IMG/VR virus record: IMGVR_UViG_3300020190_003475
Location: 1 to 54,535 of that record
DNA from: a virus
Direction: 5' to 3' (one strand)
DNA: 54,535 nucleotides
This document shows, in pieces, positions 10,459 through 54,518 of this stretch; position 1 is the first letter of the stretch; each line of letters begins with the position of its first letter. The notes under the pieces were generated by a model. It ran no database searches. It worked only from the letters and a program-made list of their open reading frames with translations, and had not been told where the DNA came from. A program made the translations under genes and the position numbers.

Positions 10459-11496
10459 ATGAGTTTCGTAAGAATTCGATCCGGTGCATATCGCACCACC
10501 GATGTATCCAACCGTGTGTTCCAACTTGTAGAACAATACAAGGCCGGTGCCAAAGGTGGCTATGTCACAGTCAAGAACGGTGGCCAATTCCCTGGCTTCC
10601 CAGAAGATATCCGTGTCAAAGTTAATAGCATGAGTGATTACGAGTTCGTGAGTTCCGATGAGTTTGATGGCCAAGTGGTGGCAATGGATACAGATGTTGC
10701 TGCCGTAGTGAATGATTCGAAGTCGGATGAAGAGCGTATGGCTGAGATTGCCGGGCGTTTTGAGATTCTGACAGAGATGACTAAGGCTGCTACTACCGGT
10801 GACATCCGTGCTATGATCGTAAGCGGTCCTCCGGGTGTGGGCAAGAGTTATGGCGTAGAAGCCGAGATTGAAAAGGCGTGCTTGTTCGACCAAATCGCGG
10901 GCCGTCGTCTTAGAGCCGAAGTAGTAAAAGGTTCGGCCACTGCTATCGGCTTGTATCAAGCCTTATACAAGTATTCGGATCCAAACTGCGTGGTTGTGTT
11001 CGACGACTGCGACAGTATTTTACTTGATGATGTGTGCCTTAACTTGCTTAAAGGTGCTCTAGACTCGGGTAAGAAACGTAAGATATCATGGATCGCAGAA
11101 TCGCGTATCTTGCGTGACGAAGGTATTCCTAACAGTTTTGAATTTAAAGGTTCGGTTATCTTTATTACTAACCTCAAGTTCGACAAAATGAAGAGCCAGA
11201 AACTGCGTGATCACTTGGATGCACTGCAATCACGCTGCCATTACTTGGACCTTACACTAGACACCATGCGCGACAAGATCTTGCGTATCCGCCAAATCGC
11301 TCGCTCTGGTGAACTGTTTGCGGATCTTGAACTTGGTGATATTGCACAGGACGAGATCATTGAATTTATGAACGTTAACAAGAACAGTCTACGTGAAATG
11401 AGCTTGCGTATGGCTATAAAAATTGGTCAGCTGTACAAGAGTTTTCCTACCAAGTGGGTGGCACTTGCACAATCAACCTGTATGAAATCTGCGTAA
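10459..11496 (+). CDS. AAA+ ATPase
   Basis: A 345-residue protein. Walker A is GPPGVGKS at about 123-130, Walker B is VVVFDDCDS near 180, and VIFITNLKFD supplies a sensor-1 Asn. The N-terminal 100 residues are not recognised. The ATG at 10459 follows GGAG at 10450-10453; an in-frame TTG at 10420 lies before the predicted transcription start and is ruled out. Stand-alone AAA+ ATPases of this kind occur in T4-like phages; the remodelled substrate is unknown. It is followed by a strong terminator. Confidence 0.8.
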   Translation: MSFVRIRSGAYRTTDVSNRVFQLVEQYKAGAKGGYVTVKNGGQFPGFPEDIRVKVNSMSDYEFVSSDEFDGQVVAMDTDVAAVVNDSKSDEERMAEIAGRFEILTEMTKAATTGDIRAMIVSGPPGVGKSYGVEAEIEKACLFDQIAGRRLRAEVVKGSATAIGLYQALYKYSDPNCVVVFDDCDSILLDDVCLNLLKGALDSGKKRKISWIAESRILRDEGIPNSFEFKGSVIFITNLKFDKMKSQKLRDHLDALQSRCHYLDLTLDTMRDKILRIRQIARSGELFADLELGDIAQDEIIEFMNVNKNSLREMSLRMAIKIGQLYKSFPTKWVALAQSTCMKSA

Positions 11497-11542
11497 GCAG
11501 ATCGCCCGGGGTTTTTGATAGCTCCTTTTACTCCGGTTCTTT

Positions 11543-11567
11543 GCCCCGCTTAGGCGGGGGTTTTTTT
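11543..11567 (+). terminator. Rho-independent terminator after AAA+ gene
   Basis: CCCCGC (11544-11549) pairs with GCGGGG (11554-11559) around TTAG, followed by a run of T at 11561-11567. Confidence 0.9.
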
Positions 11568-11579
11568 GACTTTTACATT

Positions 11580-11587
11580 TATAAGTA
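11580..11587 (+). promoter_or_regulatory. T4-like late promoter variant TATAAGTA
   Basis: TATAAGTA lies 20 bases before the ATG at 11601, just after a terminator, so the next operon needs its own promoter here. One mismatch to TATAAATA. Confidence 0.5.
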
Positions 11588-11600
11588 TTACACTTACACT

Positions 11601-12752
11601 ATGAAAAAATTTCCGTCAGTTGAAGATTATATCGAAGTTATCAATGGTGATCGTGATATTGTGACTGGCAAGTTGTACGGCTTGTTTGATAGCCGTCCGC
11701 CCATAATTAGCCTTGCCAGATACGATGTTAAAATCTTAGACAGCATGAGTCAGGCTACACAAAGCGGGCGAGCTTTAACAGACAAACAGGCAGAGTTGGC
11801 AGTCAAGATTGTGCTCAAATATCGCAAACAGTTGGCTGCTCATTTGGTTGATGTTAGTCCTGTTGAAACTCCTACGTTTAGATTGGGCATAAGACAAATT
11901 GATCGACGTAGACTTTTGTACATCGATAACAACAGCATTATGTTAAAGTTTCCGTACGATACTACACTAATAAATGACTTGAGAGACTTGGCCATGGTCA
12001 GCCAAGGCAGTTGGAAATTTGATAGCCAAAATCGCAGCTGGGCATTGGCTTTGACTGAAATGAATGTGGTAGCGGCCAACGGCTTTGCACAAAATCACAA
12101 GTTTGAACTTGCACCAGAATTCGAACGTTACATACGGGCAGTTGAAGACTGTGAATCACAACAATATGAAATCAAATTGATCGCGGACACTAAAGAAAGT
12201 TACACTATCACAAACGCCGCTCGTACCTTGATTGAAGCTGTCAACGACTGGACTAATTTAGAGCATTTGATTGATCGTAGTGCTGTATACGGTTACACAG
12301 TGGATGAGCCGCTTGTTTTAGACATTGTTTCCAAGTACGGACCACGTGTGGCCAATCTTATGACTACTCAAGAAACCAAGTTTGCACCCACCAGTGATGA
12401 GACTGTGTTTCAAGATCTTGTCCGGTACGCAGACACAGTTGGCAGATATCCTATCTATGTTTATGAACCCGACATGAGCGAAAGACTGTATAACAATTTT
12501 GTAGCTAAATGCTTTGATAAAGATGATATTTATCGGACACAAAGTTTAAAACAAAAAGATCTTATCACTGACAAAAAAGTTGTTTACTTCAACAAGTTTA
12601 CTGCACTTTGGGATGAACCTATACCGTTATTGATTAGTGGCCAAGGCATGATGCATGGCGGTGACAAAACTATTTTGTTACAACGAGCAGAAAAGGTTGT
12701 ATACTTTGCTACAGAAGTGTATAATGTTGCAACTATGAAGCGTAAAAACTAA
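11601..12752 (+). CDS. Hypothetical protein, putative partner of UvsW helicase
   Basis: A 383-residue protein. The segment near residues 95-155 includes IMLKFPYDTTLINDLRDLAM followed by GSWKFDSQNRSWALAL. This recalls the small HARP-like region that precedes some SNF2/SF2 helicases (substrate-recognition Trp-x-Phe-Asp pattern). Its stop overlaps the UvsW start by one base (TAATG). I infer a DNA-binding accessory for the helicase, but there is no direct proof. The longer frame from 11454 reads through a terminator and is not used. Confidence 0.55.
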   Translation: MKKFPSVEDYIEVINGDRDIVTGKLYGLFDSRPPIISLARYDVKILDSMSQATQSGRALTDKQAELAVKIVLKYRKQLAAHLVDVSPVETPTFRLGIRQIDRRRLLYIDNNSIMLKFPYDTTLINDLRDLAMVSQGSWKFDSQNRSWALALTEMNVVAANGFAQNHKFELAPEFERYIRAVEDCESQQYEIKLIADTKESYTITNAARTLIEAVNDWTNLEHLIDRSAVYGYTVDEPLVLDIVSKYGPRVANLMTTQETKFAPTSDETVFQDLVRYADTVGRYPIYVYEPDMSERLYNNFVAKCFDKDDIYRTQSLKQKDLITDKKVVYFNKFTALWDEPIPLLISGQGMMHGGDKTILLQRAEKVVYFATEVYNVATMKRKN

Positions 12753-44382: not shown

Positions 44383-44580
44383 ATGAATCCCAATTACAGC
44401 AACAGTTCATATGGCCCGATCAAGTACAGCCTTAACCGCAAGCGGCAAATCATCAACGCACATCTCGAAGAACTGCATGCCATGCACATGAGCATGATAG
44501 AAGCGGCTGTACAAATAAAAGAGCATGAAGGCTTTCCTGAAGCTGCCCAGGTTATCAACCATGTTCGAGGTCTGGCATGA
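44383..44580 (+). CDS. Small hypothetical protein
   Basis: A 65-residue helical protein with His/Met-rich middle (HLEELHAMHMSMIEAAVQ). AAGGAAAAC lies upstream. Overlaps the next gene by four bases. Function unknown. Confidence 0.55.
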   Translation: MNPNYSNSSYGPIKYSLNRKRQIINAHLEELHAMHMSMIEAAVQIKEHEGFPEAAQVINHVRGLA

Positions 44581-44861
44581 ATGTAGAAAATTTAGTAGAT
44601 GATATTCTCGCTGATCGTGTGGCAATTAAAGAACTGGACATGCAACAAATGGAAGCACTGGTAGACTACATGCGTGAAAGTATCAGCACAATAGACAACG
44701 ATGAGTGTCGTGAGGCCTTACTAGTACTAGTAAACGCAATTGAAATAGCAGCTGAGAACAGATTTGGCAATGAGGCAGCAGGTGATTGGGATGATACCAT
44801 TGAGGCTAGTATTGCTCGTGGCAACACTTATTTTGAATTGGAAAATCCGGTAGTGCAGTAG
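44577..44861 (+). CDS. Small acidic hypothetical protein
   Basis: A 94-residue acidic, helical protein starting MNVENLVDDILADRVAIKEL. Last gene of the small-gene operon, followed by a terminator. Acidic early phage proteins often inhibit host enzymes, but nothing here proves it. Confidence 0.6.
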   Translation: MNVENLVDDILADRVAIKELDMQQMEALVDYMRESISTIDNDECREALLVLVNAIEIAAENRFGNEAAGDWDDTIEASIARGNTYFELENPVVQ

Positions 44862-44897
44862 CGATGTAATATATCCATAAAAAAGGCAGTAATTTAG

Positions 44898-44921
44898 ACC
44901 CGCTTCGGCGGGTTTCTTTTT
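44898..44921 (+). terminator. Rho-independent terminator
   Basis: ACCCGC (44898-44903) pairs with GCGGGT (44908-44913) around a TTCG tetraloop, followed by TTCTTTTT. Confidence 0.9.
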
Positions 44922-44926
44922 GGGTT

Positions 44927-44934
44927 GATAAATA
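44927..44934 (+). promoter_or_regulatory. Late promoter GATAAATA, leaderless
   Basis: GATAAATA directly after the terminator; the predicted +1 (44940) is the A of the ATG of the next gene. Confidence 0.7.
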
Positions 44935-44939
44935 ATTAT

Positions 44940-45176
44940 ATGTCAGCCAATGGAATAGCACAATTAGCTCTAAAAAGAGACAGGCAAGATCAGAAATTAA
45001 CCCTTGCAGGAACAGACAGGGCTGACCGTAATTTAGTTCAACCCGGTAGATACGCAGATACTTCAGCCGATGCTACACAATTGCCTACACGCTACAATGC
45101 GTCAAGTAACACCGGTTCATTGGTGGATAATCCGAACACCGGTGGCCTTAAAAAAGGCAGGCCCTGGGCGTCATAA
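44940..45176 (+). CDS. Small hypothetical late protein
   Basis: A 78-residue polar protein starting MSANGIAQLALKRDRQDQ, with Asn, Thr, Gly and Asp richness and no membrane span. The ATG at 44940 coincides with the predicted late transcription start; the TTG at 44925 lies upstream of the promoter. Possibly a virion component. Confidence 0.6.
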   Translation: MSANGIAQLALKRDRQDQKLTLAGTDRADRNLVQPGRYADTSADATQLPTRYNASSNTGSLVDNPNTGGLKKGRPWAS

Positions 45177-45192
45177 ATGACATATTAATTAG

Positions 45193-45221
45193 TTGACGTC
45201 ATTCCGTTAGTATAATATACT
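45193..45221 (+). promoter_or_regulatory. Sigma70-type promoter, TTGACG-17-TATACT
   Basis: -35 at 45193-45198 and -10 at 45216-45221. A late promoter follows at 45235, so the next gene may be expressed both early and late. Confidence 0.7.
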
Positions 45222-45234
45222 AGCCATACAATTC

Positions 45235-45242
45235 TATAAATA
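45235..45242 (+). promoter_or_regulatory. T4-like late promoter TATAAATA, leaderless
   Basis: Exact TATAAATA; predicted +1 is 45248, one base before the ATG at 45249. Confidence 0.7.
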
Positions 45243-45248
45243 CACGCT

Positions 45249-46880
45249 ATGTTATTTGGATCACTAATCATGTTAGTGGCTGTGACCATTTCGGCAATCG
45301 CTGCATGGTATTCGGTCGAAGGTCTCACTGCTATATTCAGTGCCGCAGTCATACCTGTTATCATTATGGGCGGCGCACTTGAAGCCGGCAAATTGGTTGC
45401 CACAGTTTGGTTACACAACAACTGGCAACGAGCCGGATGGGTATTCAAGGCCTATCTTGTTCCTGCTATCGTATTCCTAATGCTACTAACCAGTATGGGT
45501 ATCTTTGGTTTCTTAAGCAAAGCACACAGTGATCAAAGTTTGGTTTCCGGCGATGCTACCAGTAAGGTTGCTATATATGATGAAAAAATTAACACAGAAA
45601 GAGAAAACATAGCACAGGCCAAAAAGGCCATTGAGCAAATGAATGCCCAAGTAGATCAAATGCTAGGAAGAACAGATTCAGAACGAGGCACCGATAAAGC
45701 AGTTATTATTCGTAAGCAACAGGCCAAAGAACGAGCCGCATTACAATCAGAAATCACACGAAGTCAAAAAACAATTCAACAATTACAAGCCGAGCGAGCC
45801 CCATTGGCCGCAGAGGCTAGAAAGGTAGAGGCAGAAGTTGGACCTATCAAATATATTGCTGCTCTTATATACGGCGACAATCCCGATCAAAATATTCTTG
45901 AGCGGGCTGTACGTTGGGTTATTATACTTATTGTTATTGTATTTGATCCGCTAGCACTAACACTTATCCTCGCTGCCAACAAACAATTTGAATGGGCAAG
46001 ACAGGGTCGTGGTGGTTGGATTCATGACGACGATGCCGCCGCTATGGCTACCAATCCCAATCCGCCAGGCGTAGAACAACGACCTTGGACTGAGGCAGAG
46101 ATTGCTGCGTTGAATCGGTTGGATGAAAAAATAAATCCCGATCGGGAGGCAGATGAATTTTTTGAACGAGCGCACCTAGCAGCACAAGCAGCAGATATGT
46201 TAGATGAGCAACATCGTGCTGAACAAGCAAATACCGAGGCAGACCAAATTAAACAGGACGAAGATTTAAATATACCCGTTCTCGAAAATGAAGAAATGTG
46301 GGCACAACGAGTGATCGACGAACAGCCAAAATATCCAGCCGACGATGGTGCTTTGACTGACAATCAAATTGCTCAGATTCGATCATTTATAGAGGAAGAA
46401 CAAACGGTTCCAGCAGCTACCGCAACAGAGGAACCCACGGAAGAGTTGCCACCACCTGTAGATGAATTTAATACGCCCGTCAGACGCGGTGCAGACTATG
46501 CTGTGCGTTACAAAGGCAAAGTGTACAACCTAGATGCATTTAACAAACTGTATCCGGGCATGTCCATACAGGCCGACAATGACAAATTGCAAGCAGCCAG
46601 TCAGTGCGGTTTTGGAGAACGATTCCCAGATACGCCCATGAAGGGTGATATGTTTATTAGAACAGATTATCTTCCTGACCGACTGTTTAAATGGAATGGT
46701 CAAAAATGGATCGAAGTAGATAAAAACTCCACTGACAGTTACACTTACAATCAGGCTTACATTCAGCATCTGATTGAAAAGCTTGAAGCCGGCGAATATG
46801 AAATTGAAGACCTCAGCGACGCCGAACAAGCTCAAGTTGAACAACAGATCGAAGAAATATTGAAAGGCAAGCGTGGATAG
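45249..46880 (+). CDS. Large membrane protein with coiled coil
   Basis: A 543-residue protein. Three N-terminal membrane spans are seen (residues about 3-22, 28-50 and 68-90), then a coiled coil at about 105-195 (YDEKINTERENIAQAKKAIEQ), a fourth span at about 215-240 (VIILIVIVFDPLALTLIL) and a long acidic cytoplasmic tail with a short SH3-like domain near 410-425 (YAVRYKGKVYNL). The N-terminus has no ribosome site, as expected from leaderless mRNA. Family function unknown; it may reshape the host membrane. Confidence 0.65.
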   Translation: MLFGSLIMLVAVTISAIAAWYSVEGLTAIFSAAVIPVIIMGGALEAGKLVATVWLHNNWQRAGWVFKAYLVPAIVFLMLLTSMGIFGFLSKAHSDQSLVSGDATSKVAIYDEKINTERENIAQAKKAIEQMNAQVDQMLGRTDSERGTDKAVIIRKQQAKERAALQSEITRSQKTIQQLQAERAPLAAEARKVEAEVGPIKYIAALIYGDNPDQNILERAVRWVIILIVIVFDPLALTLILAANKQFEWARQGRGGWIHDDDAAAMATNPNPPGVEQRPWTEAEIAALNRLDEKINPDREADEFFERAHLAAQAADMLDEQHRAEQANTEADQIKQDEDLNIPVLENEEMWAQRVIDEQPKYPADDGALTDNQIAQIRSFIEEEQTVPAATATEEPTEELPPPVDEFNTPVRRGADYAVRYKGKVYNLDAFNKLYPGMSIQADNDKLQAASQCGFGERFPDTPMKGDMFIRTDYLPDRLFKWNGQKWIEVDKNSTDSYTYNQAYIQHLIEKLEAGEYEIEDLSDAEQAQVEQQIEEILKGKRG

Positions 46881-47223
46881 TAATTTAGTTACCCCGCCCG
46901 ACATTATACACAACGGGTTGTATTCAGTGTTATTAGTTGACCTAGACCAAATTGATTTGGATGCAGTTATAAGATTTTGCCAATATTCTGCAGATGCTTA
47001 TAACGTGTATGCGTATACTCCTAACATGAATAACAATCATTGGTTACAACAAGCAGTGGAAGCATGCGATACTATTATTGTGAATTCTAGACTGGACCAG
47101 TTCAAATCATTGTGTCTACTTGATAAAACATACTATTATGGCGATAAGTTTTACATAGAAAATCCTCGACGCATAACTGATCCTGTACACTTTTTTGCAG
47201 CACAAGCCCACGAAAATAAATAA
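46873..47223 (+). CDS. Hypothetical protein
   Basis: A 116-residue protein from GTG 46873, starting MDSNLVTPPDIIHNGLYSVLLVDLDQIDL. Rossmann-like alternation of strands and helices (LLVDLD, NVYAYTP, DTIIVN). Overlaps the end of the membrane protein gene by 8 bases. Function unknown. Confidence 0.6.
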   Translation: MDSNLVTPPDIIHNGLYSVLLVDLDQIDLDAVIRFCQYSADAYNVYAYTPNMNNNHWLQQAVEACDTIIVNSRLDQFKSLCLLDKTYYYGDKFYIENPRRITDPVHFFAAQAHENK

Positions 47224-47227
47224 TCTT

Positions 47228-47464
47228 ATGTATGAAAAATCAAACAAAGTAATAGGTAATTTGGTGGTAGTTACACACGACAATGTAGAAAAGGCTTTAC
47301 GCAAATTCAAGAAAAAAGTGGCCGAAAGTGGCCTTTTGCAGAATTTACGTGAACGCGAAACCTATGAAAAACCAACTACTCGTCGCAAGAAAGCAAAAGC
47401 AGCAGCACGCCGACGTTGGCAAAAGAGATTGGCCGACGAGCAATTACCCAAAAAACTGTACTGA
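47228..47464 (+). CDS. rpsU: Ribosomal protein bS21 homologue
   Basis: A 78-residue bS21-like protein. After a phage-specific start (MYEKSNKVIGNLVVVTHDN) the core VEKALRKFKKKVAESGLL, RERETYEKPTTRRKKAKA and a basic tail match bacterial S21 in sequence and order. bS21 sits on the 30S platform next to the anti-Shine-Dalgarno and helps initiation. A phage copy could replace the host protein and alter mRNA choice. The ATG at 47228 is preferred to the upstream TTG at 47195. Overlaps the next gene by one base. Confidence 0.88.
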   Translation: MYEKSNKVIGNLVVVTHDNVEKALRKFKKKVAESGLLQNLRERETYEKPTTRRKKAKAAARRRWQKRLADEQLPKKLY

Positions 47465-47709
47465 TGTACATAGAGTTTCGCTTGCCAATGGGTGCCGGCG
47501 GAGCAGCAGCAGGCGCGGCACTTGCTCAAATTAGAAAAGACCTAGATACATGGGCAACCAGGTACCAGATTGCTGCTTATAGAACCAAAATACACAAGTA
47601 TACATATCGGTTAAGTTTTGACAACAACAAAGATTACACACAATTTGCACTTACATGGAATCCTAGATATACAGTCAGTAATAATTTTGTTCTAATCAAC
47701 CCAAAATAA
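47464..47709 (+). CDS. Small hypothetical protein
   Basis: An 81-residue protein starting MYIEFRLPMGAGGAAAGAAL. After an Ala/Gly-rich stretch it is basic and aromatic (RTKIHKYTYRLSFDNN). It begins in the stop of bS21, so may be co-translated. Function unknown. Confidence 0.55.
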   Translation: MYIEFRLPMGAGGAAAGAALAQIRKDLDTWATRYQIAAYRTKIHKYTYRLSFDNNKDYTQFALTWNPRYTVSNNFVLINPK

Positions 47710-47738
47710 TTGTAGCACACTGTGAAATTTAGTATAAT
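47710..47738 (+). promoter_or_regulatory. Sigma70-type promoter, TTGTAG-17-TATAAT
   Basis: Hexamers at 47710-47715 and 47733-47738, upstream of dnaK. A late promoter follows, so dnaK has early and late control. Confidence 0.65.
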
Positions 47739-47743
47739 TGATG

Positions 47744-47751
47744 TATAAATA
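47744..47751 (+). promoter_or_regulatory. T4-like late promoter TATAAATA before dnaK
   Basis: Exact TATAAATA. The predicted +1 (47757) is the first base of a GC-rich stem-loop: GT(A)GGGT at 47757-47763 pairs with GCCCAC at 47771-47776. Confidence 0.7.
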
Positions 47752-47783
47752 ATTGTGTAGGGTGCTTCGGGCCCACAAAATAC

Positions 47784-47799
47784 TTGCTTAATTAAGGAG
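47784..47799 (+). promoter_or_regulatory. ROSE-like hairpin over dnaK ribosome site
   Basis: CTTGCTT (47783-47789) can pair with AAGGAG (47794-47799) as CTT/AAG plus CTT/GAG, leaving one bulged G and an AATT loop. This masks the Shine-Dalgarno, as in ROSE RNA thermometers with their UUGCU motif. The same design precedes hsp20. Confidence 0.6.
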
Positions 47800-47807
47800 A
47801 AAAATAA

Positions 47808-49694
47808 ATGAGTACTATCATTGGTATTGATCTTGGTACCACCAATAGCTGCGTAGCAGTTGTCGAAAACGGAATCCCTAAAATAATTGAAAATTCAGAA
47901 GGCGCACGTACTACGCCCAGCATTGTGGCCTATACCTCAGACGAAGTTCTGGTAGGCGCTGGCGCCAAACGTCAGGCTGTAACCAATCCCAAGAACACTA
48001 TCTATGCTGCCAAGCGACTGATCGGACGCAAGTTCATGGAGCAGGCTGTACAAAAAGACATCAATCTCATGCCCTATGAAATCATGGAGAGCAAGAACGG
48101 TGATGCTTGGGTACAGGCCAACGGCCAAGAACTGGCGCCTCCGCAAATCTCAGCTGAAGTGCTACGCAAGATGAAAAAGACCGCTGAAGACTATCTTGGG
48201 CACGAAGTAACACGAGCAGTAATTACAGTCCCTGCATATTTCAATGATAGCCAGCGTCAGGCCACCAAAGATGCGGGTGCTATTGCTGGACTTGAGGTAT
48301 TACGTATAATCAACGAGCCAACGGCAGCAGCCCTGGCATATGGAGCAGACAAGAGTGACAAAAAAGACCGTAAAATTGCTGTGTATGATCTTGGTGGCGG
48401 TACCTTTGATATATCTATTATCGACATCGCTGATGTGGATGGTGATAAACAATTCGAAGTACTTAGCACCAATGGGGATACATTCCTAGGAGGCGAAGAT
48501 TTTGATCAACGCATTATGGATTACCTTATTACTGAATTTAAGAAGGAATCTGGAGTTAATCTCGGCCGAGACGTAATGGCGCTACAGCGACTAAAAGAAG
48601 CTGCCGAGCGTACCAAGATTGAGTTGTCCAACAACACACAAACAGATGTAAACTTACCTTACATCACTGCTGATGCCACTGGTCCAAAACATCTTAACAT
48701 TAAAATTACTCGAGCCAAATTAGAAAGTCTAGTTGATGATCTAATTCAGCGTACCATCGAACCATGCCGTACAGCAATGCAAGATGCTGGAGTAACTGCC
48801 GGCGATATAGATGAGATTATTTTAGTTGGTGGCCAAACACGTATGCCCAAAGTGCAAGAAGCGGTTGAACAGTTATTCGGACGAGCACCACGTCGTGATG
48901 TTAATCCAGATGAAGCAGTAGCAGCCGGAGCAGCAGTACAAGGTGCTGTACTAGGTGGTGATCGTAAAGATGTGCTATTACTTGATGTTACCCCACTGAG
49001 CCTAGGTATTGAAACCATGGGCGGAGTGATGACCAAACTAATACCAAAGAATACAACTATTCCTACCAAGCATAGTCAAGTGTTCAGCACAGCTGAAGAC
49101 AATCAGCCTGCAGTTACTATCAAAGTCTATCAAGGTGAACGTGAACTAGTACAGCACAACAAACTGCTAGGCGAATTTAATTTAGAAGGTATCGATCCTG
49201 CACCTAGAGGTATGCCCCAAATTGAAGTTGTTCTAGATGTAGATGCAAATGGCATTCTTAAAGTAAGTGCTCGAGACAAAAAAACTGGCAAAGAAAATCG
49301 GATTACCATTAAATCTGATAGTGGTCTAAGTCAAGAACAGATTGAGGCGATGATTCGCGATGCTGAAACAAATGCCGCTGCGGATCGAAAGCAACTAGAG
49401 CTCATTGAAACTCGTAACCAAGCGGATTCAGTGATCCACCAAGTAAGAACTGATCTGAAAGAAGTTGGGGGCAAACTCGCAGAAGATCAGACGAAGACAA
49501 TAAACGATAAAATAAGTGAACTAGAACAAGCCATTGCAGGCACAGACCGAGAAGCAATTACAACAAAATTGACTGAATTGTTTGTTGCCTCAAATGCAAT
49601 CAACGAAGCAAAACAGCCGTCAACTACAGAGCAATCTGTAAAGCCCACTGCAGATGACAATGTAGTAGATGCTGAGTTTACAGAAAAGCCGTAA
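47808..49694 (+). CDS. dnaK: Molecular chaperone DnaK (Hsp70)
   Basis: A full-length 628-residue Hsp70. The ATPase domain has [13 protein letters not shown] at 4-16, [12 protein letters not shown], and LVGGQTRMP. The substrate-binding domain follows ([17 protein letters not shown] linker start), then a helical lid and a C-terminus ending [10 protein letters not shown], which is the conserved DnaK tail. Very close to betaproteobacterial DnaK by eye. DnaJ and GrpE are not in the window, so it would use host co-chaperones. It may fold virion proteins. Confidence 0.95.
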
Positions 49695-49704
49695 AGAATA
49701 TGCG

Positions 49705-49731
49705 GTGTAGATGCCCGGGTGGGGTCTACAC
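49705..49731 (+). other. Stem-loop in hsp20 leader
   Basis: GTGTAGA (49705-49711) pairs perfectly with TCTACAC (49725-49731); CCC and GGG inside the loop can extend the stem. It lies upstream of the ribosome-site hairpin, like the 5' hairpins of ROSE leaders. It could also act as a weak terminator for dnaK, but no T run follows. Confidence 0.6.
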
Positions 49732-49745
49732 TCATATGTCATAAC

Positions 49746-49762
49746 TTGCTTATAGAAAGGAG
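49746..49762 (+). promoter_or_regulatory. ROSE-like hairpin over hsp20 ribosome site
   Basis: CTTGCTT (49745-49751) can pair with AAGGAG (49757-49762) in the same pattern as in dnaK, with one bulged G and a different loop (ATAGA). The stem is preserved and the loop varies, which fits a selected structure. Confidence 0.6.
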
Positions 49763-49770
49763 AACGTATT

Positions 49771-50208
49771 ATGACAACTTATACAATTAGCACTTTTGAT
49801 TTACCAACACTTCATCGCCATGCTGTAGGCTTTGATAGATTGTTCAACGAACTAGGACGCACTTTTGCCAATAGTAAAGCCGACAACTATCCGCCTCACA
49901 ACATTGTTCGAATTGACGAAAATCACTATGCCATCCAACTAGCGGTTGCTGGCTTCAGTGAAGATGAACTTGATATTGAATACAAAGAAAATGTTCTAAC
50001 GATTCGAGGCGAACAAAAGCAAAAAGATGAATACGAATACTTGCACCGTGGCATCAGTGCAAGAACTTTCACTCGTCATTTTACTTTAGCTGACAATGTG
50101 GAAGTTAAAGGCGCTACAGTAATTAATGGTATTTTGGCAGTTAGTTTGGAGCATATTGTTCCCGAAGAACAAAAGCCCAAGAAGATTGCAATTACATTCG
50201 CTAAGTAG
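49771..50208 (+). CDS. Small heat-shock protein Hsp20 (IbpA-like)
   Basis: A 145-residue sHSP. AVGFDRLFNELG near residue 19 resembles IbpA. The alpha-crystallin domain runs from about 40 to 125 (HYAIQLAVAGFSEDELDIEY, NGILAVSLEH), followed by the PKKIAI tail with the IxI oligomerisation motif. It holds unfolded proteins for later refolding by DnaK. Such sHSPs occur in T4-like marine phages. The leader carries a ROSE-like thermosensor. Confidence 0.9.
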   Translation: MTTYTISTFDLPTLHRHAVGFDRLFNELGRTFANSKADNYPPHNIVRIDENHYAIQLAVAGFSEDELDIEYKENVLTIRGEQKQKDEYEYLHRGISARTFTRHFTLADNVEVKGATVINGILAVSLEHIVPEEQKPKKIAITFAK

Positions 50209-50214
50209 TATAAT
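50186..50214 (+). promoter_or_regulatory. Sigma70-type promoter, TTGCAA-17-TATAAT
   Basis: TTGCAA (50186-50191) lies in the end of hsp20 and TATAAT (50209-50214) overlaps its stop. Predicted +1 about 50221, inside the first arm of a hairpin. Drives clpS. Confidence 0.65.
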
Positions 50215-50218
50215 AACA

Positions 50219-50240
50219 GTAGGGGGATACATCCCCCTAC
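50219..50240 (+). other. 5'-terminal stem-loop before clpS
   Basis: GTAGGGGGA (50219-50227) pairs perfectly with TCCCCCTAC (50232-50240) around a TACA loop: nine base pairs beginning at the predicted +1. No T run follows, so an mRNA-stabilising element is more likely than a terminator. Confidence 0.7.
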
Positions 50241-50256
50241 TTAAACCTACAAGACC

Positions 50257-50568
50257 ATGAGCAAAACAGATATTGTAGTCAAACCTAGGATTCAAATCAA
50301 AACAAACATCCAGCCACCCAGTTTGTTTAATGTAATATATCTAAACGATAATGTAACAACTATGGAATTTGTTGTAGAATCTCTCAAAACAATTTTCCAT
50401 CATTCAGAGCAAACTGCACATGAAATAACTTTGAAAATTCATCAAGAAGGATCTAGCGTGGTTAGTACTTTACCTTATGAAATAGCTGAACAAAAAGGTG
50501 TAGAAGCAACTCTTCTTGCTCGTAACAACGGCTTTCCTCTCAACGTAAAATTAGAACCAGCTAATTGA
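50257..50568 (+). CDS. clpS: ClpS-like adaptor
   Basis: A 103-residue ClpS. SLFNVIYLNDNVTTMEFVVESLKTIF contains the N-degron pocket segment (LNDN and MEFV), followed by AHEITLKIHQEGSSVV with the conserved His. ClpS gives N-end-rule substrates to ClpAP. A phage copy might steer the host protease. It lies between chaperone and nucleotidyltransferase genes. Confidence 0.85.
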   Translation: MSKTDIVVKPRIQIKTNIQPPSLFNVIYLNDNVTTMEFVVESLKTIFHHSEQTAHEITLKIHQEGSSVVSTLPYEIAEQKGVEATLLARNNGFPLNVKLEPAN

Positions 50569-51045
50569 ATGATATTCAATAAAATACGAGAACTTAAGGA
50601 TAAGGGACTTAAGATTGGGATTACTTTTTCGACTTTTGATTTATGCCACGCCGGTCATATTGCAATGTTGGCAGAGGCTAAGAATCACTGCGATTATCTT
50701 ATCGCCGGGCTGCAAACCGACCCCACAATTGACCGTCCGGATATAAAAAATCCACCCGTACAGAGTGTCGTGGAGCGACAGATTCAATTGGCGGCATGTC
50801 GCTATGTGGATGAAGTGGTTGTATATCAGACTGAGCAAGATTTAGTTGACATTCTTTTGACCCTGCCTATTGATGTGCGTATACTGGGTATAGAATACGC
50901 AGAAAAAGATTTTACTGGTGCACAAGAATGTTACAATCGTCGAATTGAATTGGTGTTTAACCAACGCGATCATTCGTTCAGTTCCAGTAGTCTGCGTAGA
51001 CGTGTAGCAGCAGCCGAAGCTGATAGAGCCCTCAGGAGTCAATGA
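50569..51045 (+). CDS. Cytidylyltransferase-like protein (TagD/RfaE fold)
   Basis: A 158-residue nucleotidyltransferase. GITFSTFDLCHAGHIAMLAEAK has the HxGH motif, LIAGLQTDPTID and SSSSLRRRV fit the family. Such enzymes activate glycerol-3-phosphate or other alcohol phosphates with CTP. Starts immediately after clpS. Substrate unknown. It is a second, distinct member besides the heptose enzyme at 4902. Confidence 0.75.
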   Translation: MIFNKIRELKDKGLKIGITFSTFDLCHAGHIAMLAEAKNHCDYLIAGLQTDPTIDRPDIKNPPVQSVVERQIQLAACRYVDEVVVYQTEQDLVDILLTLPIDVRILGIEYAEKDFTGAQECYNRRIELVFNQRDHSFSSSSLRRRVAAAEADRALRSQ

Positions 51046-51578
51046 TGGATGTAATGCTGGATCTTGAAACGCTGAGCACAAGACCATGGTCAGTTATTTT
51101 AACTTTCGGCGCAGTCAAGTTTAGCCCCTGGGAGTCGGATGTTGATCAAGGTCAAGGCCTATACTTAAAACCAGATGTTGACGAACAACTATCTATGGAC
51201 CGACACGTTCAAGACGAAACAGTTGCCTGGTGGGGAACACAAACTGAAGAAGTAAGAGAAGAAGCTATGGGCATGGATGGTCGCATAAGTGTAAATGATA
51301 TGTTGGATCAGCTCAATCGCTTTTTGGTTGGTGCAGATAATATTTGGTGTCAAGGACCTGCTTTTGACATTGTTATACTAGAAGATCTATATAGACAAGT
51401 TGGTCGTCCGACTCCGTGGCAATTTTGGCAGATAAGAGACAGCCGTACATTGTTTAGTGTTCATGGTGATCCAAGAGAAAAAAACAGACACGGTGCTCAC
51501 AATGCATTGATTGATTGTTATTATCAGGCTAGAGCTGTACAGCATATATACAAAATAGTAGGAGTAAAAAAACGATAA
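51042..51578 (+). CDS. 3'-5' exonuclease, DexA-like
   Basis: A 178-residue DnaQ-fold exonuclease. MLDLETLST gives the first Asp-x-Glu at 7-9, GPAFDIVILEDLY the second Asp region, and HNALIDCYYQA the last His and Asp. It resembles T4 exonuclease A. Overlaps the previous gene by four bases. Possible roles are degradation of host DNA or RNA, or repair. Confidence 0.82.
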   Translation: MMDVMLDLETLSTRPWSVILTFGAVKFSPWESDVDQGQGLYLKPDVDEQLSMDRHVQDETVAWWGTQTEEVREEAMGMDGRISVNDMLDQLNRFLVGADNIWCQGPAFDIVILEDLYRQVGRPTPWQFWQIRDSRTLFSVHGDPREKNRHGAHNALIDCYYQARAVQHIYKIVGVKKR

Positions 51579-51892
51579 TGGATATTATTTTTAATAGACA
51601 AATAGCAGAAGAATTAAGTGAAAGATACACTGTTCTTGAACTAGAACCACACGATGTAGAAGGACAAATATTAGAAACATTTTGTGTAGTGCCCGGAGAT
51701 CAAATTCCGTTAGAAGAAGTTGTTAAACTGGATCACTGGAAAAAGCTACACAATACATTTGTACAGGCCAACAAAGACAAAAACGCAAAACTGTGCTACG
51801 ACTTACGTCCATATCTCAAAGGCAAGTGGGGCGGCGAACTAGACGAATTTTATGACATAGTTTGCGGCAGATTTGATCATCAAGAAACATAA
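51578..51892 (+). CDS. Hypothetical protein
   Basis: A 104-residue protein starting MDIIFNRQIAEELSERYTVLELE, with CYDLRPYLKGKWGGELDEFYDIV. Acidic, mixed alpha/beta. Starts in the stop of the exonuclease. I do not recognise the function, though the pattern is familiar from uncharacterised T4-like phage proteins. Confidence 0.6.
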   Translation: MDIIFNRQIAEELSERYTVLELEPHDVEGQILETFCVVPGDQIPLEEVVKLDHWKKLHNTFVQANKDKNAKLCYDLRPYLKGKWGGELDEFYDIVCGRFDHQET

Positions 51893-51934
51893 TATTGGTA
51901 TTTTATCATGCCACGGTGTTATGATATATACTGT

Positions 51935-52294
51935 ATGAACAAAATTTTAGCAGTCATCTTACTGGTCACTCTAGCCACAGCAGCCACAGCAGCCACAGCA
52001 GCTACAGCAGAACCTAGGTTTAGAAAAATTCAATTGATGTGTGGCAGCTTTGAAGATGTTGAAATTACCATGGAACGATATGGTGAAAAACTAATCATGG
52101 CTACTCAAGCACCCAATGAACAGACAGTAAATTTGGTATACGCTAATTTTGAAACGGAAACCACCAGCTGGTTTATTCATGATTTGAATACCAATGAATA
52201 TTGCATGATGGGAGTTGGTAAACGAATACATATACCAGATACTAGTCCACTTAAACAAGGAACTGGATTAGGAACCAAAATTAATTACAAATAA
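51935..52294 (+). CDS. Small secreted protein
   Basis: A 119-residue protein with a signal peptide (MNKILAVILLVTLATAATAA) and an Ala-Thr repeat up to the AEP cleavage region. Two Cys (LMCGSFED, EYCMMG) could form a disulfide in the periplasm. The ATG at 51935 gives a proper signal peptide; the upstream ATG at 51908 would add seven polar residues and an isolated Cys. Function unknown. It is expressed before the autotransporter-like gene and ends at a terminator. Confidence 0.6.
   Translation: MNKILAVILLVTLATAATAATAATAEPRFRKIQLMCGSFEDVEITMERYGEKLIMATQAPNEQTVNLVYANFETETTSWFIHDLNTNEYCMMGVGKRIHIPDTSPLKQGTGLGTKINYK
51974..52009 (+). repeat. 9-bp tandem repeat in signal peptide
   Basis: Four units of GCCACAGCA (last GCTACAGCA) encode Ala-Thr-Ala. 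Slippage would change the signal peptide by three residues without a frameshift. Confidence 0.75.
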
Positions 52295-52318
52295 CCTGGA
52301 AAATTTCCAGGTTTTTTT
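52295..52318 (+). terminator. Rho-independent terminator
   Basis: CCTGGAAA (52295-52302) pairs with TTTCCAGG (52304-52311), followed by seven T. Confidence 0.85.
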
Positions 52319-52340
52319 GTGTCATAAAAAGGAGACAACT

Positions 52341-52415
52341 ATGAGTTGGTTTGCACATCGTCCTGTCAAAAATCCTCCACAACCTGCACCTGTCACTCCA
52401 CCGCATAGAATGTAG
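52341..52415 (+). CDS. Proline-rich micropeptide (24 residues)
   Basis: ATG at 52341, preceded by AAAGGAGA at 52328-52335. Encodes MSWFAHRPVKNPPQPAP and a short PVTPPHRM end. The strong ribosome site in an otherwise empty gap supports a real gene. Function unknown. Confidence 0.5.
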   Translation: MSWFAHRPVKNPPQPAPVTPPHRM

Positions 52416-52441
52416 TGCCACATAATCATTAGGTTTTTTGT

Positions 52442-52449
52442 TGTAAATA
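52442..52449 (+). promoter_or_regulatory. Late promoter variant TGTAAATA with 5' hairpin
   Basis: TGTAAATA with +1 about 52455. GTAGAC (52454-52459) pairs with GTCTAC (52477-52482) around an A/C-only loop, leaving AAAGGAG at 52484-52490 free. Confidence 0.6.
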
Positions 52450-52499
52450 CTTGGTAGACACAAACAAAAACAACAAGTCTACTAAAGGAGCTAAAAAAA

Positions 52500-54518
52500 A
52501 TGAAATATTGGGGCAAGATCATTGCGATCATGGCCGCCATGTGTTTCAATTCAGTAAATGCTTTCGAGTCAGGCACAGATTACAATAGTGCAAACATGTC
52601 GTATATGGCAAACAGCACTATCAGTCAAATAGTAGTTTTCGATTCAACAATGCAAAATGGAGGAACTTTAACATTTACCGTTGAGGCGCATGCTGGCGGA
52701 GGAAGACCATTACAACACGATACTGGTCAACTTAAATTAGAGTTTTACAATTCTAGTAATACACTATTAGGATCAAGTCAAACAAGTTATGCCACAGGTA
52801 ACTTGTTACAAATGAATGCATGGAGTTCGGTACCGGGCGATAACAGTGAACCATGGACCACACTAAGTTTAACATCTACCAACTGTGGATCAGCAGGCAG
52901 TTGTAGTAGTGTTGCTTATGTAAAAGTAGTCATGATTGGTACTGACACTAGTTGGTGGGCAGGTAACTATGGTCCACAATGGCGTGTACCGACTGTTACA
53001 TTTACACCCACAGGTGGTACAGCAGGCAATAATATACTTTACAATCCAGAATTTGGTCTAGATCCCGGCGGCGTCTTTGCACAAGGTTGGACCAGTTCTA
53101 CCAGCTGGGGTGCTTGCGGTACGACCAGCGGAAGTGTAATGTGTACAACCACAGCCACAGGTGTAACTGCCAACATGAGCGGCGGAGGCTATGATGCCAA
53201 TGGTGGCACCACAGCAGCCACTCCAGGAGGTTATAGCGGTACACTTACCACAGCCAACTTTAGTGGTAGTAGCGGAGGTGGCTCGCCCACTGTGGTATCA
53301 ACAGCACCTGGTACACCTATAGTGTATACTAGTTCATCCACAGGCGCCACTACAACTACAGTTGTTGATACACCAGGTGCCACTACTGTAGTAGAAACTG
53401 TTACTGACACTAGAGGAGCCGGTACAGCAAAATCTTTGACTGTGACAAGAAATATCACCATTGTGGCTACCACACCAGTTACACGGGTGACAACAGATAC
53501 AACTCCAGTGACTACAACCACTGTGACAACTCCTACCACTGTAACCACATACAGCGATGGATCCACTGTCACAACAAATGGTACCCCGGTTACTACAACT
53601 AGTACCGTCAATCAAACAGTAACAACTACAACCACATTTGATCAAGTGGTCACAACCGGCACCAGTCAAGATTATGCAACAAGAATTGATCAGCTGGCAC
53701 AATTAGACTCAGCAAACACCAGATTGAACATGACGCTAGACAGCAATGTGCTCAGTCGTCATCGCAGCACAGGCGGGGGCCTAACCAGCCGAACTCGCAA
53801 TGCCGGCAGCGATGAAAAAGGCTGGTGGTATTTGACCACAGAAAGCGGTGCTACTAATACCTATGACACCTACTCGTTAACCAATCGTCGCCTTGGTGTT
53901 GGGCATGAAAAACAGATCAAGGGCAACTGGGTAGTGGGTCTACAGTACAATCATGTGCGCGGTACACTGAGTGGACAAGATGCAGGTGGATCACTAATCA
54001 AAGATCATGTGGGTATCTACAGCCTGTACAACCATAACAATTGGCTGTGGAAAACTGATGTAGGTTATGCTCAGAACAGTTTTACCAACTATCACCTGTT
54101 GCCAGAACTAGGTTATTCAAACTCTGGTAAAACCACAGGTGCAGATGCATGGATCAGCAACAGACTGTACACACCAGACTGGCGTGGCTTTAGGCCGTTT
54201 GGTGGTATTCGTGTTGAGCAAAACAAGCGCAATGCTCTGATAGAGTCTGGTGATGCTATCACAGCCATGTCATTTGACAGTGTTAATCGTACTCGCACAG
54301 TGAGTGAACTGGGCCTACGCTATGACACCGTGATCAAAGACGCTGTGAATTTCATGGTGGAAGCCAGTCATACTGATACCAACATCAGTACTGTGCGAGC
54401 AGGGGTGAATTTTGCCCCTCGACAAAACATCGTGGGTGGCATCACAATTGGACAACAGTATCAAAACGGAATAACAAATTTGACAGTTCAAGCAAGCATG
54501 AAATGGCACTTTAACTAA
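52500..54518 (+). CDS. Autotransporter-like outer-membrane protein
   Basis: A 672-residue protein. Residues about 1-21 are a signal peptide (MKYWGKIIAIMAAMCFNSVNA). Residues about 25-265 form a Gly/Ser-rich beta-type passenger with two Cys pairs. Residues about 265-390 are a Thr/Val-rich low-complexity stalk. From about 430 to the end, alternating aromatic strands (WWYLTTESG, WVVGLQYNHVRG, WKTDVGYAQNSF, FRPFGGIRVEQ, LTVQASMKWHF) form an autotransporter-type beta-barrel. It should sit in the host outer membrane with the passenger outside. Possible roles are receptor masking or superinfection exclusion (inference). Confidence 0.75.
   Translation: MKYWGKIIAIMAAMCFNSVNAFESGTDYNSANMSYMANSTISQIVVFDSTMQNGGTLTFTVEAHAGGGRPLQHDTGQLKLEFYNSSNTLLGSSQTSYATGNLLQMNAWSSVPGDNSEPWTTLSLTSTNCGSAGSCSSVAYVKVVMIGTDTSWWAGNYGPQWRVPTVTFTPTGGTAGNNILYNPEFGLDPGGVFAQGWTSSTSWGACGTTSGSVMCTTTATGVTANMSGGGYDANGGTTAATPGGYSGTLTTANFSGSSGGGSPTVVSTAPGTPIVYTSSSTGATTTTVVDTPGATTVVETVTDTRGAGTAKSLTVTRNITIVATTPVTRVTTDTTPVTTTTVTTPTTVTTYSDGSTVTTNGTPVTTTSTVNQTVTTTTTFDQVVTTGTSQDYATRIDQLAQLDSANTRLNMTLDSNVLSRHRSTGGGLTSRTRNAGSDEKGWWYLTTESGATNTYDTYSLTNRRLGVGHEKQIKGNWVVGLQYNHVRGTLSGQDAGGSLIKDHVGIYSLYNHNNWLWKTDVGYAQNSFTNYHLLPELGYSNSGKTTGADAWISNRLYTPDWRGFRPFGGIRVEQNKRNALIESGDAITAMSFDSVNRTRTVSELGLRYDTVIKDAVNFMVEASHTDTNISTVRAGVNFAPRQNIVGGITIGQQYQNGITNLTVQASMKWHFN

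Follow-up and report, generated by a model that had tools for sequence, protein, structure and literature searches.

An open reading frame (ORF) at 52500-54518 of IMG/VR virus record IMGVR_UViG_3300020190_003475 (54,535 bases, referred to as the window) raises the question of why a phage would encode what looks like an outer-membrane protein, and what such a protein would display on the host. An initial annotation, made from the sequence, had described a signal peptide, a beta-rich passenger, a Thr-rich stalk and a C-terminal barrel within this one phage gene, and all four were recovered by a sequence rule together with AlphaFold2 and Foldseek. The carrier is a phage of freshwater type. Its proteins include a DNA primase, ribonucleotide reductase and tailspike-like proteins, and a baseplate-wedge protein with cyanophage relatives, along with a DnaB-like helicase that is nearest to those of jumbo phages, PA5oct among them (49% identity). 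Since the window encodes phage replication and tail genes, the ORF is phage-borne. We propose, with a probability of roughly 0.7, that its product is a surface-displayed protein carrying an FBA-type domain.

The barrel and its passenger

AlphaFold2, supplied with the window protein and 32 relatives, predicted a plug helix followed by twelve strands (Table 1), with a predicted local distance difference test score (pLDDT) of ~85-95 in the barrel; the structural check proposed in the initial annotation had therefore returned a barrel. When this model was compared with the PDB by Foldseek, the best matches were all autotransporter translocators (NalP, EstA, AaaA, Hbp, BrkA, EspP, and AIDA-I), the top one being NalP 1uyn (E 5.4e-12, TM-score 0.77 by target). 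As modeled, the fold is that of a type Va autotransporter translocator. The barrel sequence profile had EstA as its sole PDB match, a weak one (E 0.046). Three of the 33 family members matched PF03797 (Autotransporter), the window protein itself being unmatched, and the homologues L008 (6.5e-10) and L010 (1e-13) passed the Pfam cut-off, in agreement with the earlier description of the product as autotransporter-like. Profile comparison also showed that the divergent barrels of L012, L013, and L038-L044 are homologous to the window type (hhalign 98%, E 7.7e-14). For a contig scan, the barrel alignment (A3) varied too much.

Both ends of the protein were also examined. The signal-peptide test, a simple positive/hydrophobic/AXA rule applied to start sites rather than SignalP, was passed by only 3 of the 76 window start sites tested, this gene among them (predicted cleavage between MKYWGKIIAIMAAMCFNSVNA and FESG), and by 44 of 48 relatives, for each of which several start codons were tried. 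Barrel-type relatives end in F, with one ending in Y (L046). The window protein ends in WHFN, F being penultimate, and a member of the same barrel sub-family (L104) ends in WVFN, so the extra terminal N is not an error; as the initial annotation pointed out, this terminus is close to a barrel-assembly signal that would end in the aromatic residue itself. Membership among the trimeric autotransporters (YadA, type Vc) was also considered, and is ruled out by the single-chain 12-strand barrel of the model and the lack of a Pfam match in the window protein to PF03895, their short 4-strand anchor. With NalP, EstA, EspP, and AIDA-I the window protein shares a signal peptide, an N-terminal passenger, a plug helix, a 12-strand C-terminal barrel, and a near-terminal aromatic residue; unlike them, it is phage-borne, has a probable FBA-type lectin passenger and no recognized cleavage motif, and lies below Pfam detection in sequence.

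Autotransporter-type barrels in phages are already present in databases, as the three best barrel matches in a viral structure library carry the label of autotransporter beta-domain proteins of uncultured Caudovirales; a literature search found no paper on them. Two proteins so annotated, WJZ47857 (Synechococcus phage DSL-LC03) and A0A6J5L9T3 (uncultured Caudovirales phage), have the same barrel family or fold, with labels that are apparently automatic, but the DSL-LC03 passenger differs from that of the window. The paper on the DSL-LC phages does not mention the autotransporter-labeled protein (PMC10611076).

We identified the passenger by three approaches. FBA domains are best known from animal ubiquitin ligases, and the profile of the N-terminal domain matched FBXO44, FBXO2, and FBXO6 at E-values of 0.01-0.12. 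AlphaFold2 modeling of the domain alone gave a predicted TM-score (pTM) of 0.78, and the five best Foldseek matches of that model were all FBXO44 or FBXO2 structures (E from 5.9e-6). The search for phage homologues suggested in the initial annotation found the domain at 70 loci in viral contigs, but gave only one weak bacterial match, a Flavobacteriales metagenome-assembled genome protein (L092:5683-7473; E 4e-5 to the phage domain). Pfam assigns this protein an FBA domain (6.3e-30) along with a sorting domain for type IX secretion (T9SS), and it is likely a bacterial surface FBA lectin; PF04300 had no direct Pfam match in the window protein, the connection running through the bacterial one. 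Thus profile search, fold search, and the bacterial bridge agree on FBA. Furthermore, the second residue of the Trp152-Trp153 pair is invariant in the family alignment, and mutation of the FBXO2 counterparts, Y279/W280, abolishes substrate binding (PMC12904710). Several FBXO proteins use FBA as a lectin domain (PMC3210139). The phage domain shares with FBXO2 the fold, the D-x-x-[YWF]-W-x-G-x-[YF]-G motif, and the aromatic pair, and differs in being exported and without an F-box. Taken together, it is probable that the passenger is a sugar-binding domain of the FBA (Fbs1/FBXO2) type in which the aromatic pair for substrate binding is retained. This lectin domain is also the conserved part of the protein, with 84-100% identity among close relatives vs. 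34-55% for most barrel pairs.

Anchors and module exchange

In nearly all relatives the FBA-like domain lies near the N-terminus, 3' of the signal peptide, whereas the downstream part varies. Some relatives continue into autotransporter-type barrels with F or Y as the last residue; others into curlin repeats, in many cases preceded by an F5/8C domain; and others, including Actinomycetia phage DSL-LC01 and most of L067-L090, into long acidic Thr-rich linkers and then a C-terminal transmembrane helix. Members of this actinophage type (L067-L090 and L004:5815-8649) reach 1307 amino acids, most with the transmembrane helix. That this N-terminal domain is mounted on different surface anchors in relatives supports display on the host surface, as the initial annotation had predicted, and together with the barrel makes the proposed fold and outer-membrane surface display of the window protein very likely on computational grounds.

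The curlin-type loci are tied to curli secretion. CsgG was found 2.0-2.7 kb upstream on the same strand in all 19 with enough upstream DNA (many of them related, and hence not 19 independent events), and in none of the 16 barrel-type records was it that near; the three curlin-type loci without CsgG sit close to the contig end on the upstream side. One locus (L048:2522-7860) is an apparently complete phage curli operon in which csgF, csgG, curlin, and FecR genes are followed by a protein with signal peptide, FBA-like domain, F5/8C, and curlin repeats. In three barrel-type phages (L032, L034, L040) CsgG does occur, at a distance of 21-23 kb, and no second lectin-domain gene was found in any of the three. 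Of these, L034 was inspected (as L103): its curli operon is full, and its curlins are without an FBA domain. Like the phage curli (type VIII secretion) of pelagiphages and Melnitz (PMC7029224, PMC9004378, PMC9599517), the window gene would represent a phage system that places adhesin-like proteins on the infected cell, but it uses a barrel anchor. With no Curlin_rpt in the protein (Pfam) and no CsgG on the contig, the marks of curli are confined to relatives. The curli or barrel regions retrieved from HTVC008M, Melnitz, DSL-LC02, and DSL-LC03 contained no FBA domain. Other passengers are also of carbohydrate-binding type, namely F5/8C and, on the HTVC008M curlin, PA14: the 'hypothetical protein' AGE60352.1 in the curli cluster of this Pelagibacter phage (L101:4698-6023) consists of a PA14 domain (E 2.7e-6) and then curlin repeats.

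Evidence for exchange of these parts comes from the window gene itself. Three contigs (L005-L007) are 99.98% identical to window positions 44500-53692, with just two differences, at 53657 and 53663, and the identity ceases at 53693, where the plug helix begins. These contigs and the window share signal peptide, lectin, and stalk at 100% identity, compared with 36% for the barrel. The window's barrel recurs, at 84% DNA identity from 53644 onward, in L104 (L104:5796-8144, minus strand) and L105, whose N-terminus is unrelated and contains an F5/8C domain, and in Synechococcus phages DSL-LC02 and DSL-LC03 the barrel family is joined to a further, different passenger. Judged from these comparisons, barrels and passengers are modules exchanged by recombination. 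The GC content at third codon positions (GC3) of the window barrel (0.46, vs. 0.27-0.35 in sister barrels) would fit a recent import. For these contigs, switching by inversion or from a silent second barrel cassette was rejected, with no second copy of the window barrel in L005 and one barrel match per record.

The same break could have been produced by assembly, joining lectin and stalk to a barrel from a different phage, and the abrupt end of identity, the deviating GC3, a contig that stops 17 bases past the stop codon, and a junction found on no other contig would all suit such a chimera. We consider it improbable, as the two single-nucleotide differences before the break and the similarity to L104 from 53644 form the pattern of a real crossover, and L104 and L105 pair the same barrel with another passenger, so that swaps do happen in nature. 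L005-L007, moreover, have the same architecture with a barrel of their own, independent of any doubt about the junction.

Autotransporters, FBA lectins, and phage curli are each already known. We found no description of a phage surface module in which an FBA-type lectin changes among barrel, curli, and membrane anchors, and literature searches found no paper describing this FBA-barrel protein family. The lectin-like passenger and the recombining of barrel and passenger as modules also go beyond the initial annotation. Whether phages of different lineages share a surface-lectin program, in which one FBA-type domain is given the anchor that fits the envelope and parts are recombined, gluing cells to new hosts or shielding them, appears to us evenly balanced.

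Expression signals and neighboring genes

Table 1. Features of the lectin-barrel gene and its surroundings (positions in the window).
Feature	Position	Strand	Basis or remark
Small exported protein directly upstream, signal peptide, no family; kept in L010 (6308-6649)	51935..52294	+	
Terminator-like stem and T-run 3' of upstream gene	52293..52320	+	Consensus match
T4-late-promoter-like TGTAAATA(CTT), 51-58 bases 5' of start codon	52442..52449	+	Modest evidence
Ribosome-binding site AAAGGAG	52484..52490	+	Direct reading of sequence
Gene: signal peptide, FBA-like domain, Thr-rich stalk, 12-strand barrel; 672 amino acids (aa)	52500..54518	+	ATG start; ORF intact and complete
Signal peptide, aa 1-21 (VNA/FE)	52500..52562	+	Rule-based, not SignalP
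Conserved N-terminal domain, aa 22-250; beta-sandwich core, aa ~30-170, FBA/Fbs1-type	52563..53249	+	Profile and fold searches
Trp152-Trp153, aligned with FBXO2 Tyr279-Trp280	52953..52958	+	Alignment; PMC12904710
Linker modeled at low confidence (to aa ~282), then Thr-rich stalk with long predicted beta strands; together aa 251-397	53250..53690	+	AlphaFold2
Putative recombination junction (stalk/barrel)	53657..53693	+	Identity to L005-L007 ends; similarity to L104/L105 barrel from 53644
Predicted translocator plug helix, aa 398-412	53691..53735	+	AlphaFold2 model
12-strand outer-membrane barrel, aa 441-669	53820..54506	+	AlphaFold2, Foldseek, profile
C-terminal MKWHFN, barrel-assembly-like signal	54498..54515	+	Sequence

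The late-type promoter that the initial annotation had assigned to this gene was upheld in part. The sequence at 52442 (TGTAAATACTT) is like a T4 late promoter, and TAAATAC occurs in nine copies on the coding strand of the window vs. one on the other, seven of the nine lying within 100 bases of a start. The frequency of TATAAATA in the window with one mismatch allowed was not above chance, so the promoter claim stands on the strand-biased TAAATAC only and the evidence is modest. The homologous gene has a TAAATA site upstream in L005, L008, L009, L010, L012, and L013 as well. These signals weakly suggest late expression, and the terminator-like element suggests that the gene is its own transcription unit.

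The small exported protein encoded directly upstream is a possible partner of the lectin-barrel protein. Downstream of the homologous gene, relatives encode a D-Ala-D-Ala carboxypeptidase-like protein (L005 ~11379-12143, L008:11264-12022, and L010:10230-10985; Peptidase_S11 tested in L008) and, in L010, a UDP-sugar dehydrogenase, a possible envelope-modification cassette. Elsewhere in the window, DnaK (HSP70), an Hsp20-looking protein, and ClpS are encoded in a row at 47808-50568 (DnaK and ClpS confirmed by Pfam, Hsp20 recognized by eye only), and a 543-residue protein at 45249-46880 has N-terminal hydrophobic segments by eye and a weak DUF4407 match.

Possible roles of the displayed protein

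Starting from the computationally supported elements (the gene, its export signal, both domain folds, the alternative surface anchors of relatives, and module shuffling), we infer the following course. The protein would be exported by Sec, probably late in infection, and its C-terminal 12-strand barrel would insert into the host outer membrane; the FBA-type domain would pass through or past the barrel and be held off the membrane on the Thr-rich stalk, remaining attached and uncleaved. The lectin could then bind glycan on neighboring cells, particles, or the cell envelope, and the infected cell would adhere or aggregate, with progeny released beside new hosts. Such 'sibling capture' has been put forward for phage curli (PMC7029224; PMC9599517). 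The long spacers and fiber versions favor trans binding and hence adhesion or aggregation, and by analogy we tentatively regard adhesion as the main role, at somewhat less than even odds.

A number of points weigh against this interpretation. The window protein had no match when searched directly against Pfam and PHROG, the E-values of the FBA profile matches are marginal, the corresponding fold matches have TM-scores of only ~0.35-0.4 by query, and FBXO44, the best FBA match, is a poor sugar binder. In addition, no clumping was seen with Melnitz, which has phage curli genes (PMC9004378). The adhesive role is argued by analogy, and adhesion is far from established.

The initial annotation had named hiding of receptors, blocking of other phages, and altered adhesion as hypotheses. 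The main rival to adhesion is receptor masking, in which the surface lectin, late in infection, would bind in cis to lipopolysaccharide or capsule of the host itself and so block superinfecting phages or keep progeny from sticking to debris, much as T5 Llp blocks FhuA. The outer-membrane location, the late-type promoter, the carbohydrate-type passengers, and the envelope-related genes downstream in relatives are all in keeping with masking; nevertheless, long stalks, curli fibers, and long-linker transmembrane forms place the domain far from the membrane, an arrangement better suited to trans binding, and we consider masking rather unlikely. A role as lysis factor, with the barrel disrupting the outer membrane or priming it for disruption as infection ends, is suggested by Synechococcus phages DSL-LC03 and DSL-LC02, where a homologous barrel gene lies directly 3' of endolysin/lysozyme genes, and a related idea has been proposed for phage CsgG (PMC9004378). 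With no adjoining lysis gene recognized in the window, L008, or L010, and with the lectin rather than the barrel as the conserved part, this role is very unlikely. Jelly-roll carbohydrate domains do occur in phage tails, and weaker Foldseek matches to the K2-2 tailspike and the phi812 baseplate point the same way, toward a beta-rich tail fiber or head decoration; the signal peptides of the window protein and its relatives and the autotransporter barrel make a virion fiber unlikely, and with the CsgG-linked and transmembrane versions leave a virion protein of any kind the least credible of these alternatives.

The reading we prefer, surface display of an FBA-type lectin, would place this domain both in phages and in a Flavobacteriales surface protein. 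The literature treats phage curli operons as a puzzle, with no target known, and a conserved lectin that sits on phage curlin and elsewhere has been moved to an autotransporter barrel offers a concrete binding module to test. If this is true, phages would re-coat infected cells with a lectin and thereby re-engineer what the host sticks to during infection.
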